A DNA stretch of 64,000 bases from a bacterium (lineage in GTDB: Bacteria > JAJVIF01). Made by a program: the position numbers and the translations under genes. The notes under the pieces were generated by a model. That model worked only from the letters and a program-made list of their open reading frames with translations, did no database searches and was not told where the DNA came from. The DNA is taken from positions 492,063 to 556,062 of the forward strand of contig JAJVIF010000002.1 of the NCBI GenBank assembly GCA_022072165.1, in the 5' to 3' direction. Of this stretch, positions 54,406 through 59,689 are shown piece after piece (positions within the stretch are counted from its first letter, which is position 1; every line of letters starts with the position of its first letter).

Positions 54406-55791
54406 TTAACGACGCTTCCGCCAGAAGGGACGGCGCGCGCGTCGGGTCCCCTGTTGGTTCGGGACCGGTCCCCCCATAGGTGTGATGCCCTGGCTCCCGG
54501 CCATGACATCGTTCGACTGCCCCCAGCCTTTCATCGATGCCACCGCCAGGATCACCCCGACCTGGCCGGTGTTCCAGAGGGTGCTGAGCTGCTCCGGATT
54601 GCTCCCCGCTGCGCCAATCACCCACCATTGGAGTCGACCAGGGACGATATCGACCCAGAGTCGCTGGATCCCGGGCTGCCCGAAGTACTCCCCCATCTTC
54701 CCCGCCGCCTCCCGACCGCCGCCGGGCATCAATCCGACTCCCCGCTCAAACAACTGACTCATGATGCGCACCGCCTCGTCGGAGCCATCGAACCCCATCG
54801 CAATGCTCTTGGGCGTACTGAGCAACACCGAGGCATCCCACTGAAAGTTCTGCTGTGGGTCGGATGTTGCCGGCTGTGCAGGTTTCTGGAGCAGTCGCTG
54901 CACGGCATCTGCGCCGCCAAGTACCAGGATTTGCTGATCGAGGGCATACGCCAGGTCCATCCGTGCCGCACTGCCGCCGTACTCTGCCAGCCGGTGCAGC
55001 AGCCCACCACCGGCCAGCATTTCGGTGGTGAAGACCCCCCGGTCGGTGTAGAGATAGAAGTAGTACATCGCCAGCATCTGGCGCGCTTTGTCGTTAGCGA
55101 TTCGGGCATCATGGACACGGAAAATCCAGACCGGTCGCAGTGCCGCACCATCATCCACCCAGCAGAGCAGCATCTCGCCAGTCCACCAATTGGCGAAATC
55201 CTGATCGAAGCCGACCTCATACAAATCCCGCATGAGGCTGCTGACACCCGCGCCGCCTCCCAGCGCGCCGGAGAGTCGCAGCTGACTGGTCAGGGCATCG
55301 CTCGTGAGGAACCGGTCCAGGCCGTCAATCGTCCCCAGCATGTCGTTCACATAGACATACCCCCGGACTGCTGGCTGCTGGAGCCAGACCGGGAGTCGCG
55401 CAGGCTGCGGCGTCAGGGCCAGAGACCCCAGGAGAGAGTCCGGAGTATCCGCAAGTTCGTAGCGGAGGCTCGACCGGGGAGGCGTGCCATCCCGCCAGGT
55501 AATGATGGAGCCCGCCTTGAGTGCACTCAGTCCGAGGAGGTCCTGGACAGCAGGCACTCGCTCACGGACTTCGGAGGGTTGCAGCATCCCGGCAAGCGTC
55601 AGGGCTCCCCCAATGCCGGGCTGGTCGCCGGAGAGCATGTCGAGGTCAGCAGGGGCGCTCAGTCCATCCTCTCCCGGCGGGTCCGCCGCGATCGGCAGTC
55701 CGGGGGCGGGCAACGCGGGCAACGCCAGGCAGCCGGTGAGACACCAGGCAAGCGACAGCAGGAAGAACTGGAGCAGATGCAGGGACTTCAC
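54406..55791 (-). CDS. Putative lipoprotein of unknown function
   Basis: The 461-residue product has a lipoprotein signal (lipobox LTGC near residues 18-21) and a large soluble part that I do not recognise; its C-terminus ends in a basic Arg-rich run. Its GTG start (55791) overlaps the stop of the preceding glycosyltransferase-like gene by 4 nt, and GGAGGGGGA lies directly upstream. The two are therefore coupled. Function is unknown. Confidence 0.68.
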   Translation of the reverse strand: MKSLHLLQFFLLSLAWCLTGCLALPALPAPGLPIAADPPGEDGLSAPADLDMLSGDQPGIGGALTLAGMLQPSEVRERVPAVQDLLGLSALKAGSIITWRDGTPPRSSLRYELADTPDSLLGSLALTPQPARLPVWLQQPAVRGYVYVNDMLGTIDGLDRFLTSDALTSQLRLSGALGGGAGVSSLMRDLYEVGFDQDFANWWTGEMLLCWVDDGAALRPVWIFRVHDARIANDKARQMLAMYYFYLYTDRGVFTTEMLAGGGLLHRLAEYGGSAARMDLAYALDQQILVLGGADAVQRLLQKPAQPATSDPQQNFQWDASVLLSTPKSIAMGFDGSDEAVRIMSQLFERGVGLMPGGGREAAGKMGEYFGQPGIQRLWVDIVPGRLQWWVIGAAGSNPEQLSTLWNTGQVGVILAVASMKGWGQSNDVMAGSQGITPMGGPVPNQQGTRRARRPFWRKRR

Positions 55792-57527
55792 TCCCCCTCC
55801 TGGCGTTCCCGACGATCTGGGAAGTCTGGTGGGGTGATCGCGATTTCAATGACCCGTCCGGCATGACGTGGCTGCGCGGTCGGAGACGGATGCGCGACAT
55901 CGGTGAACGTCCGCCGGACTTGTGAGAGTTCTGCCGCAGTGATGGGGTCGGTGGCTGTGGGATCCACCGATCCCCGACTCCAGGGGACCCGGGAATCCCG
56001 CGGCAGATCGACCCCTGTCGCGGCCTGCGACGCTGGTCGCGCGGAGGAGTCGCTGACAAGTTCAATTTGTGGCCCCACCACATCACTGGGGCTTTCTGTC
56101 GCAGCTTCCTCCGACCGCACGGACGCGGCAGCGCTGTTCGCCGGGACCGTGACATCCTGCGCGGTGGGTCCGACCGCTCCCTGAAACAGCACCTGATGCA
56201 GAGCCGCGTTCATCCGTTCCCAGAGCGTCTGCGGAAGGGCTGGTGACGTAGCAGTCTCAGGTTCATCGAAGAGTGCGGCGAAGCCTTCAGCTTCCACCGT
56301 GATGATGGGTGTGACCGCCGGGAGGGAGCGGGTGATGTCCGGTGCCGGGAGGGGGGTATCGCCGATGCCGGGAATGGGTTCGATGCTGTCCGCTGCGGTC
56401 TCCGGGGCTTCCATCCGGGTCATTCCAACTTCGAGGACAGGCGTCTCAAGTGCCTGAACGTCATCTCGTGTCGCTTCGGAGGCTGGGTCTTCAGACCCAG
56501 TTCGCTCAGACATCTCGACCGCTTGAACGACTTCCCGTGCCGGGTCTAAAGACCCGGCCTCCGCCGCGTCTGGCACAGGCATCTTGACCATCGGGGCATC
56601 TGATCGGACCGGGTCTAAAGACCCGGCCTCCGCCGCTGCTGGAGCAGGCATCTCAACAGTTGGAACGTCTGATCGTATCGGCTCGGAGGCTGGGTCTTTA
56701 GACCCAGTTAGCTCAGACATCTCGACCGCTTGAACTACTTCCCGTGCCGGGTCTAAAGACCCGGCCTCCGCCGCTGCTGGCAAAGACATCTCAACAGTTG
56801 GAACGTCTGATCGCGCCGGGTCTAAAGACCCGGCCTCCGCGCCTACAGATACCAATGGCATTTGGGGCAGCGCCAGGCGATCCAGGGGGGTCCCGCAGCG
56901 GTAGCGCACGATCTGCCACATGAGCGGACCGCTGTCCGGGACTGCCACCGACGGACATTCCACGATCGTCGGCGAAGGCACCAGACTCCCCTCGCGCTGG
57001 AGTTGCTGCGCCAGTCGGTAATCGAAAAGCGCATCGGTTGCCGGCAGCACACCCGGACGTCGCAATTGCGCTGTACGAGCGACCAGGACGCCCGCCATCA
57101 GCGGCGTCCGGGTCAGGGAGGTCCAGGTCAGCGCCAGGGGATCCGTCTGAGCCGGACTCCCCGCAGCCTCCCGGCTCGCCACCCGAAAAAAGACGCCCAC
57201 GGTCCCGGAGCCCGCAAATGCCCGGAAAATCGCCCGATGCACCTCGGCACCGCAGGTGACCTGCGGGTCGCACAGCATGACCAGTGTCCCCTGGGCTTCC
57301 GCGACTCCGGCAGCGATCAGTGCCGCTTTCGATGAGGGTCCCGTGATGATCCAGGGCTGCGCCGGATGATCGCGGAGACGCGCAGCCAGATCAGGGAACT
57401 CTGCGGGCACCAGACAGAGCAACTCGGGGGCGGGACTCCAGCCCGCGAACTGACCCAGACAGACGTCATAGGACCCGTTCGGGTCCAGGCAGGGCACCAG
57501 GATGGTCAGTGTCAGGGGCGTCCCCAT
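55788..57527 (-). CDS. GT-A-like (glycosyltransferase family 2-type) protein with repeat-rich C-terminal region
   Basis: The 579-residue product opens like a family 2 glycosyltransferase: strand TILVPCLD near residues 7-14, a Rossmann-like segment, and TLVMLCDPQV near 80-89 in place of the usual DxD site, so activity is uncertain. From about residue 225 a long disordered region follows with six occurrences of EAGSLDP or TGSKDP/TGSEDP, produced by palindromic DNA elements, then a low-complexity Pro/Ala/Glu tail. A TATACT box lies 9 nt before ATG 57527. The next gene, a lipoprotein, overlaps the stop. Confidence 0.68.
   Translation of the reverse strand: MGTPLTLTILVPCLDPNGSYDVCLGQFAGWSPAPELLCLVPAEFPDLAARLRDHPAQPWIITGPSSKAALIAAGVAEAQGTLVMLCDPQVTCGAEVHRAIFRAFAGSGTVGVFFRVASREAAGSPAQTDPLALTWTSLTRTPLMAGVLVARTAQLRRPGVLPATDALFDYRLAQQLQREGSLVPSPTIVECPSVAVPDSGPLMWQIVRYRCGTPLDRLALPQMPLVSVGAEAGSLDPARSDVPTVEMSLPAAAEAGSLDPAREVVQAVEMSELTGSKDPASEPIRSDVPTVEMPAPAAAEAGSLDPVRSDAPMVKMPVPDAAEAGSLDPAREVVQAVEMSERTGSEDPASEATRDDVQALETPVLEVGMTRMEAPETAADSIEPIPGIGDTPLPAPDITRSLPAVTPIITVEAEGFAALFDEPETATSPALPQTLWERMNAALHQVLFQGAVGPTAQDVTVPANSAAASVRSEEAATESPSDVVGPQIELVSDSSARPASQAATGVDLPRDSRVPWSRGSVDPTATDPITAAELSQVRRTFTDVAHPSPTAQPRHAGRVIEIAITPPDFPDRRERQEGE
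56471..56885 (-). repeat. 207-bp tandem duplication within the GT-A-like gene
   Basis: Two copies of a unit of 207 bp (69 codons) lie in tandem. Each carries three palindromic elements at matching positions; cores GGGTCT start at 56485 and 56692, 56542 and 56749, 56611 and 56818, every pair 207 bp apart. The frame is kept. Confidence 0.8.
56476..56840. repeat. Six copies of a palindromic element in both orientations
   Basis: A conserved element with the near-perfect palindrome GGGTCTTTAGACCC flanked by GGAGGCC on one side occurs at about 56478-56503, 56538-56564, 56608-56634, 56684-56709, 56744-56772 and 56815-56840. Copies 1 and 4 point one way, the other four the opposite way. One orientation encodes EAGSLDP and the other TGSKDPASE or TGSEDPASE; all stay in frame. 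Confidence 0.85.
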
Positions 57528-57536
57528 AGCCTACGG

Positions 57537-57542
57537 AGTATA
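57537..57542 (-). promoter_or_regulatory. Candidate -10 box of the GT-A-like gene
   Basis: TATACT on the minus strand ends 9 nt before ATG 57527, allowing at most a few nucleotides of leader. Confidence 0.5.
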
Positions 57543-57588
57543 CGGAAGCTGGTCTGTCGCGATACGGACAACGCCGAAGCCGACCGCG

Positions 57589-58443
57589 TCAGACCTTGAA
57601 AAAGATCACCATCACCATGTCCACAAAAAAGATCAGGATCATCGCGTTCACCACGGCCCGGGTGGTGGAGCGTCCGACACCTGCCGCGCCCCCTTCGGTG
57701 TTGAACCCTTCGGTGATCGCCACGCCTGACACAATGAGCCCGAACCAGAGACTCTTCCGCAACAGCGCCTGCATCAGATCCCAGCGGAAAAAGTTCTGCA
57801 CGCTGTCGAAGTAGGTGTTGAAACTGATGGCCATGCCGGGGACCGTGTAGTGCGCTGAAAAGTAGCCGGCCACGACCCCCACGACGCATCCGCAGAAGGT
57901 GATGACCGGACACATCAGGACGGTCGCGATGACACGGGGGACACTCAGATAACGGATGGGGTGCACACCGGTCGCACGCAGGGCATCGATCTGCTCTGTC
58001 ACCTTCATGGTCCCGATTTCCGACGCCATCCCCGCCCCGGCGCGACCCGCCAGGATGAGTCCGGTCAGGACGGGACCCAGCTCTTTGGTCATCACCCAGA
58101 GGATGCCGCCACCAACAAACTCCTTGCCGTACTGGATGTCGGCCACCTGCTGCACCAGCGCAGTCGCCAGCGCCAGACCAGTGAACGCCAGGCAGAGGAG
58201 GACGATCCCCATGGAGTCGACCCCGAGAAAGGCCATCTGGGCAATCACCATGCGGACTGAAATCGCGCCCTTGAAGATGAAGCCCAGGGTCTTCCCCAGC
58301 ACGATCACCAGATCGCCGATGAAACTCGCCAGCCCGGACAGCACCTGTCCCCAGTAGAGGACTACGCTGCCAACCGCGGAAAAGACCGGGAGGTCGATAA
58401 CGTCAGGGGCAGACTGTTGGGGTGCGACGGGCTCAGCGGCCAT
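57589..58443 (-). CDS. mlaE: MlaE-family ABC lipid-transport permease
   Basis: MlaE proteins are the membrane part of systems that move phospholipids between inner and outer membrane. The 284-residue product has the MlaE core: five or so membrane helices, the loop KELGPVLTGLILAGRAGAGMASEIGTMKVTEQIDAL split over residues 134-168, with EQIDALRATG near 165-174, and the C-terminal end VVNAMILIFFVDM. The ATPase (MlaF) and MCE protein (MlaD) are not within this window. The Ala-rich N-terminal extension of about 30 residues is unusual. The start is only 20 nt after the upstream gene. Confidence 0.93.
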   Translation of the reverse strand: MAAEPVAPQQSAPDVIDLPVFSAVGSVVLYWGQVLSGLASFIGDLVIVLGKTLGFIFKGAISVRMVIAQMAFLGVDSMGIVLLCLAFTGLALATALVQQVADIQYGKEFVGGGILWVMTKELGPVLTGLILAGRAGAGMASEIGTMKVTEQIDALRATGVHPIRYLSVPRVIATVLMCPVITFCGCVVGVVAGYFSAHYTVPGMAISFNTYFDSVQNFFRWDLMQALLRKSLWFGLIVSGVAITEGFNTEGGAAGVGRSTTRAVVNAMILIFFVDMVMVIFFKV

Positions 58444-58462
58444 GGGGGTATTGGTACCACAC

Positions 58463-59653
58463 CTACAGCGGACGCCCCGTGCCGACCGCTGCCAGCTGCA
58501 TCACCGGCTGCTTGCTCACCAGGTCCCAGACCGCGATGACCCCGGTCCCGAGGCTGTCACTGGTGTAGGTTTGCCCCGGCATCTGCACCTGCAGGTCGAG
58601 GGCCACCTGCGTTCCTGCAGCCCAGGCCCCGGTGATCCAGACCACGCGCCCTAACGTGGACGCGTCCTTCAGTGGCAGGTCGAAATGTGTCGTCAGCGTG
58701 AACTGCATCTCTTTGCCACCCCCCAAACTCTTCACTGCAATGACATTCACCCGGTCCTTGGGGTCGAGGATGGTCAGAACCCCATCGGCATACCCCAGGA
58801 TCCGGCCATGGATCCCCTTCGCCGGCCCGGAGGTCGCGGGCAACAGCGCGACAAAACTGGCATCACCGGCGCGACGATTCCGCCCGGCCAGCACGGTGTA
58901 TTCCGGGTGCCAGAACGCCTCTTCGGCGTCGTAATACGGCACCTCGCTGGCACCAGGGAAGAGTCGCTGCTCGATTTGACGCAGAGTGGGGAGTCCATCG
59001 GGGCCATCCGCGACCCCATAGAAGATGTAGGCAATCGCAGAGGTCCCGCGGAAGTTCTTCGGATCAATCGTCTTGGCCACCAGCCTTGGACCATCCACCA
59101 TCAGCTGCTGAATCCCCCGGTCGGGGGTGACGGTCCCGAAGCGGGCCGCGCCCGAAGCCGGGAGAATCAGCCAGTGAAAGGCATCCCCCTCACGGGTGGG
59201 AAAGCCGAAGAGCCGCGAGGCGTAGGCGTAGCGGGTGTCCAGCGCCTGCGGAATCGGATGCTTGTAAATGCTCCCCCGGGGGAGCCAGATCGCCACCAGT
59301 CGCGGCACCTCCGGACTCCCCGCCTGGGCTGGGACCTCGGTGAACACCGCCCAGTCCCCTTCAGCGATGCCGAAGATTGTCCCGACGGTGTAGAGCGGCT
59401 CGGTCTGATAGAGCACCCGTTCCGCCTCGCCCGGCACCCGCATCAGCACCGCATCGTCATCTTTCACCAGCTGCGGCCAGACTAAGAGGCGCGGGGCATA
59501 CATCGCGCCGGGGCTCCCGGAAGCGCTGAGTTCCAGCGTTTGCAGCGCGGACAGTCGTTGGAACGCCGGAGGCGCTGCCAGGGCGGATGGTGTCCACAGC
59601 AGGAGACAGCAGAGGAGGAAGGTGCAACATCGCAGGAGAGGGAGAGTCCGCAT
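58463..59653 (-). CDS. Secreted protein of unknown function
   Basis: The 396-residue product has a signal peptide (about residues 1-23, cleavage near SALA). The mature region is beta-rich with many short strands and possible propeller-like repetition, and no known motif. ATG 59653 is preceded, 6 nt upstream, by a TACAAT box, so it is probably leaderless; a start nine codons earlier is rejected. It is followed within 20 nt by mlaE, likely in one operon. Confidence 0.7.
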   Translation of the reverse strand: MRTLPLLRCCTFLLCCLLLWTPSALAAPPAFQRLSALQTLELSASGSPGAMYAPRLLVWPQLVKDDDAVLMRVPGEAERVLYQTEPLYTVGTIFGIAEGDWAVFTEVPAQAGSPEVPRLVAIWLPRGSIYKHPIPQALDTRYAYASRLFGFPTREGDAFHWLILPASGAARFGTVTPDRGIQQLMVDGPRLVAKTIDPKNFRGTSAIAYIFYGVADGPDGLPTLRQIEQRLFPGASEVPYYDAEEAFWHPEYTVLAGRNRRAGDASFVALLPATSGPAKGIHGRILGYADGVLTILDPKDRVNVIAVKSLGGGKEMQFTLTTHFDLPLKDASTLGRVVWITGAWAAGTQVALDLQVQMPGQTYTSDSLGTGVIAVWDLVSKQPVMQLAAVGTGRPL

Positions 59654-59659
59654 GTGCGC

Positions 59660-59665
59660 ATTGTA
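59660..59665 (-). promoter_or_regulatory. Probable leaderless -10 box of the secreted-protein/mlaE operon
   Basis: TACAAT on the minus strand ends 6 nt before ATG 59653, with no Shine-Dalgarno between. Confidence 0.62.
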
Positions 59666-59689
59666 CGAAGGCCGGGTCATCCCTAGTCA

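Follow-up and report, generated by a model that had tools for sequence, protein, structure and literature searches.

Six copies of a REP-class palindrome in one bacterial open reading frame: probable entry of REP DNA followed by local amplification

How does a palindrome come to occur six times within a single open reading frame (ORF), in both orientations, without breaking it? The question is raised by an ORF of 579 aa on the minus strand (55788–57527) of the window, the 64,000-nucleotide stretch of DNA that was analysed. All six copies lie within this ORF, and the frame remains open throughout with no internal stop. The element is 24 bp long, CGGAGGC[C/T]GGGTCTT[T/C]AGACCC[G/A]G, with four copies in the gene sense and two inverted. 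The exact core GGGTCTTTAGACCC is found in five of the six, and the copy at 56477 has a TTCA loop. Numbered in coding order and scored with the covariance model R1 described below, the sense copies, all encoding EAGSLDP on the minus strand, are copy 1 (56816–56839; CGGAGGCCGGGTCTTTAGACCCGG; 39.4 bits, E 2.7e-7), copy 2 (56747–56770; 45.1 bits, E 1.1e-8), copy 4 (56609–56632; 40.9 bits, E 1.2e-7) and copy 5 (56540–56563; 45.1 bits, E 1.1e-8). The inverted copies on the plus strand are copy 3 (56684–56707; 32.7 bits, E 1.2e-5), which is read as TGSKDPASE, and copy 6 (56477–56500; 33.4 bits, E 8.1e-6), the one with the TTCA loop, which is read as TGSEDPASE. The initial annotation had described six copies in both orientations in one unbroken ORF, encoding EAGSLDP and TGSKDPASE; the coordinates and translations agree with it, with the single substitution in copy 6. 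Matches to the core at two mismatches or fewer number 12 in the window, both strands of each palindrome being counted, against 0.29 in dinucleotide-shuffled windows.

The host gene is a predicted ORF. It is flanked by an MlaE permease gene (57589–58443) and by an unknown gene (54406–55791), the start of which overlaps the host stop. The neighbourhood from 54406 to 59680 is not conserved in same-class genomes. The N-terminal part of the protein has a weak likeness to GT-A glycosyltransferases (NCBIfam TIGR04283, E=0.09, below the cut-off). A Pfam search of the protein returned no match, a PDB sequence search yielded nothing useful, and an AlphaFold model from the single sequence was set aside at a pLDDT of 36. 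An allele lacking the array, the empty site, was not seen, because neither a comparison of the full protein with 39 relatives nor a search for an ortholog adjoining mlaE in three same-class genomes returned a match.

The palindrome is a dispersed element, as the initial annotation had supposed. A search of the 3.26-Mb genome gave 17 occurrences of the exact core, 12 of these outside the host ORF, and 0 of the reversed control. Model R1 was trained on 49 distinct aligned copies, all from outside the window, and recovered at least 66 copies, of which the two weakest are doubtful. This is a lower bound, since scoring covered 150 of the 3149 first-look candidates. The six window copies, absent from the training set, are all included with E values of 1e-8 to 1e-5. 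Every one of the 60 copies outside the window is intergenic, although intergenic DNA makes up just 16% of the DNA sampled, and the host ORF is the only gene hit among the at least 66 copies. Gene boundaries in these counts rest on the author’s simple codon-score caller, trained on long ORFs of the fetched stretches. The copies are unevenly spread, with one weak match in C1:1-1590000 and dense occurrence on contigs C3 and C4, part of C2 and the end of C1. The R1 search of three same-class genomes found 0 copies.

The consensus of the family is CCGGA[G/C]N-CC[A/G]GGTCT-TNA-GACC[C/T]GG, often followed by GACGTGA. The stem CC[A/G]GGTCT closes on a loop, and 97% of the stem cells are paired by standard pairs, with an A-U/G-C exchange at one pair in which 20 cells are changed on both sides. 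The tag G-G-A-[G/C] is conserved within the genome; GGAG is a REP tag in Pseudomonas as well. Intergenic copies on contigs C1, C2 and C3 match the 24-mer CGGAGGCCGGGTCTTTAGACCCGG of the host ORF letter for letter, and the identity mostly stops at the element edge. By orientation of the neighbouring genes, REP clusters are convergent in 10 cases, unidirectional in 19 and divergent in 4, with many located 7–30 bp behind a stop codon. Close pairs outside the window are head-out in 13 of 16 cases, i.e., inverted with the tag outermost. The spacers of these dimers differ and the gap between model matches ranges from 8 to >150 nt, so that neither a partly conserved spacer nor a preferred spacing was found. 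On contigs C3 and C4 there are also composite intergenic elements of ~200–500 bp (L047, L044, L045, L046, L050, L055) in which the palindrome forms the outer ends; a second CGGAG family lies inside or near them, in an arrangement that recalls mosaic, BIME-like elements. An Rfam search of the window and three REP-rich loci returned no match except one tRNA.

Assignment of the family to the REP class is well supported. The palindrome is short, as in REPs (stem of 5–13 bp, loop of 2–20), predominantly extragenic, and arranged in head-out dimers. In an Acidobacteria gp6 metagenome-assembled genome (G040, QHWT01), R1 gave 49 matches; of nine copies inspected, seven have the sequence GTAG-GCCGGGTCTT[T/C]AGACCCGGC, which is the same hairpin behind the classical tag. 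That genome is rich in REPs, the inspected copies being mostly GTAG-tagged GCCGGGTCTTTAGACCCGGC beside other palindromes such as GGCGGACCTGAAGGTCCGC. A scan of the contig collection returned two pattern matches, near the chance expectation for that pattern, but both in REP-like surroundings, and one of the genomes concerned has 49 matches to the model.

The genome carries one Y1 transposase (L036:9262-9777), which scores 90.4 bits against the cut-off of 80 for NF047646, the REP-associated tyrosine transposase. A RAYT-like protein of the sort the initial annotation had in mind is thus present. On both sides of it lies the second palindrome family, with the same tag, CGGAG-GGGCGACCCCCGGTCGCCC (CGGAG-GGGCGA), and of the 34 clusters formed by the ORF palindrome family, 21 have this second family no more than 400 bp away. 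Beside RAYT genes of this genome, the same-class genomes and the Acidobacteria genome, R1 found no significant match to the ORF palindrome itself. The RAYT gene is situated at the end of an array of ~230-bp tandem repeats, each with CGGAG-GGGCGA palindromes (L036:8300-9860; C2:388.3-389.9 kb), part of which is masked as N. The same-class genomes G001, G002 and G003 encode 7–9 Y1_Tnp proteins each and hold no copy of the ORF palindrome, which leads one to expect other REP families in them. The genome’s own RAYT may mobilise the palindrome.

The array in the host ORF is probably intragenic REP DNA that entered the gene and was then amplified locally. The codon score in the frame of the ORF is positive to about aa 205 and negative from aa 221 to aa 355. 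It returns to positive values at aa 356 without a change of frame; the remaining frames score negative and are mostly interrupted. The score of the spacers is lower than that of all 8,033 control windows of called genes, a significance that is overstated since the six spacers are not independent. The edges of the array show neither a frame switch nor a new start: on each side, frame 1 alone looks coding. The profile is most simply read as a coding sequence that holds in-frame foreign DNA. The loss of codon signal exactly over the array would also suit a former intergenic spacer, in which REPs stood just behind the stop of a first gene until a later mutation fused two genes and the spacer became coding. 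All other copies are intergenic, often at that distance of 7–30 bp behind a stop codon, and no recognised domain is common to the two flanking parts. Against such a fusion, the two flanks share one frame, no start codon behind the array has a convincing ribosome-binding site ahead of it, and the array is open in this one frame only, with at least two stops in each of the other five. Moreover, no separate ortholog of either flanking part was found. We regard the fused spacer as unlikely; it is nevertheless the main rival, because no ortholog was found that would show the empty site.

Entry of REP DNA followed by local amplification draws further support from the anatomy of the array. From the first REP onwards, the coding strand consists of six units of 69 nt (23 aa). 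In units 3 and 6 the REP is inverted and displaced by 12 nt, and the 69-nt register is still kept. Units 1–3 form the first 207-bp half in coding order (56633–56839, minus strand) and units 4–6 the second (56426–56632, minus strand), in which the last spacer is strongly diverged. The halves are identical at 171 of 207 positions (83%), and the 36 differences are distributed very unevenly: one in the 72 positions of the REP segments and 35 in the 135 positions of the spacers (p = 1.3e-6). The REP and REPIN parts have therefore been copied, converted or constrained more than the spacers. Of the 207-bp duplication claimed by the initial annotation, the two halves are real, but a single plain recent duplication does not account for such uneven identity. 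A sense REP, a 39-nt spacer and an inverted REP, with the tags outermost, together make up an 87-bp REPIN-like segment in each half: unit A (56684–56770) and unit B (56477–56563), which differ at 3 of 87 positions. The remaining spacers differ between the halves at 14 of 45 and 19 of 51 positions, i.e., inter-REPIN DNA is about 65% identical. The spacers of units 1 and 2 are also homologous, with 22 of 33 positions identical, a value that neither 20,000 shuffles nor 110,166 in-frame coding windows reached even once. Codons changed between the halves, nearly all in the spacers, comprise 20 nonsynonymous and five synonymous cases, and these numbers do not speak for a peptide under strong constraint.

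The near invariance of the REP parts, including the third codon positions (0 of 24 changed), beside variable spacers could point to a palindrome selected as an RNA or DNA structure, whether as mRNA hairpins slowing translation or tuning the operon, or as a recombination site. As single-stranded DNA, each REPIN-like unit folds into one long hairpin, with z of −6.1 on the plus strand and −4.9 on the minus strand for unit A, and of −3.4 and −4.0, respectively, for unit B. The RNA of the whole array folds with z = −8.7 relative to shuffles. However, a palindrome array folds well by construction, and recent copying or conversion explains the same pattern of conservation. That selection for structure keeps the palindrome in the ORF is an improbable explanation.

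A further proposal, implied by the initial annotation, is that the palindrome was inserted six separate times into the ORF, as a decoration of the Rickettsia kind. The two orientations are in keeping with this, and two kinds of tail stand behind the hairpins of the sense copies, which makes more than one source copy possible. One tail is an 11-nt match to the copy at C1:1835011 (CGATCAGATGC), and the other resembles the family tail GGGACGTGA (GGCACGGGAAG vs GGGACGTGAAG). The tails suggest that more than 24 bp entered, perhaps from two source copies, but not that there were six insertions. In all units the flanking spacers show homology and keep a 69-bp register, which separate insertions would not give; the shared register largely refutes the proposal, and we consider it very improbable. 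As the copies sit in homologous 69-bp units of a 207-bp repeat, most of them probably go back to local duplication that started from one or two inserted REP or REPIN units. An ordinary coding tandem repeat with an accidental palindrome, duplicated only locally, has the real 23-aa periodicity and 207-bp repeat on its side, but is practically untenable and was ruled out by the genome searches, the palindrome being far from absent elsewhere, with 60 copies outside genes, at least 66 model copies in all, and 17 exact cores where the reversed control has 0.

Entry once or twice, followed by local amplification, is thus the most likely course. The source would be the small REP family, which normally lies between genes in head-out inverted pairs and would belong to the elements that RAYT single-strand transposases copy. 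A single REP, a single REPIN-like pair or both would have entered the ORF, possibly through the action of the RAYT. Read directly from the sequence, the palindrome is free of stops in four of its six frames; taken alone, an in-frame insert is therefore no improbable event, and it could have been tolerated. The landing site, too, would have been one that can take up additional residues at little cost, probably a linker joining the N-terminal part to the C-terminal one, and the encoded peptide may be neutral or serve as such a linker. Slippage or unequal recombination would then have amplified the insert on the spot, in units of 69 bp and later of 207 bp, and selection would have retained those products that stayed in frame. 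While the spacers drifted, gene conversion or re-copying would have maintained the likeness of the REP and REPIN parts or recently restored it. An extension of this course is conceivable but quite unlikely: the REP DNA in the gene may still be copied or converted as REPIN units, with the linker varying between strains in steps of 23 or 69 aa. The array would then be a coding minisatellite in which the DNA hairpin is conserved rather than the peptide.

The locus offers a clear and internally controlled case of how an extragenic palindrome can enter a protein, as all other sites found are intergenic. A drop in codon signal marks the point of entry, and a local amplification in which the hairpin was kept and the spacers drifted can be read from the copies.

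Among known systems, the closest are the GTAG- and CGTC-tagged palindromes, for which head-out dimers, positions at gene 3′ ends and intragenic units have been described in several species (Di Nocera et al. 2013, PMC3733652). The family shares with the GTAG REPs a short tagged palindrome with an 8-bp stem and a 2–4-nt loop, tens of copies, a predominance of head-out dimers, and location mostly at the 3′ ends of convergent or unidirectional genes. Some copies in both cases lie in frame within ORFs, as dimers and clusters (PMC3733652). The tag differs, being GGAG or GGAC here and GTAG there. Rickettsia palindromic elements also lie in frame within ORFs, and the comparison drawn by the initial annotation holds for this mechanism, but not for membership: RPE-4 and RPE-6 are CGTC-tagged and occupy many genes (PMC3733652), whereas the present family has a GGAG or GGAC, GTAG-like tag, is found in one gene and is otherwise strictly intergenic. 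The REPINs of Pseudomonas fluorescens (Bertels and Rainey 2011, PMC3116915) likewise combine an inverted REP pair and its spacer in one hairpin in a genome with a RAYT; here, the spacer varies in sequence and length between dimers, the copies are few, and their mobility is putative. The REPtron, in which RAYT (TnpA-REP) cleavage and the role of the tag have been described (PMC8266576), resembles the locus of the protein above the NF047646 cut-off with its CGGAG palindromes on both sides, except that these belong to the second family and not to that of the ORF palindrome. Intragenic REPs, clusters included, have already been published, as dimers of 20–30 aa and as clusters encoding 43–82 aa in Thauera and R. 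conorii (PMC3733652), and the present array is a larger example. With six copies over ~123 aa of one gene only, in a regular tandem arrangement of 69 and 207 bp, it is longer than the arrays on record and adds an isolated bacterial lineage to the hosts of intragenic REPs.
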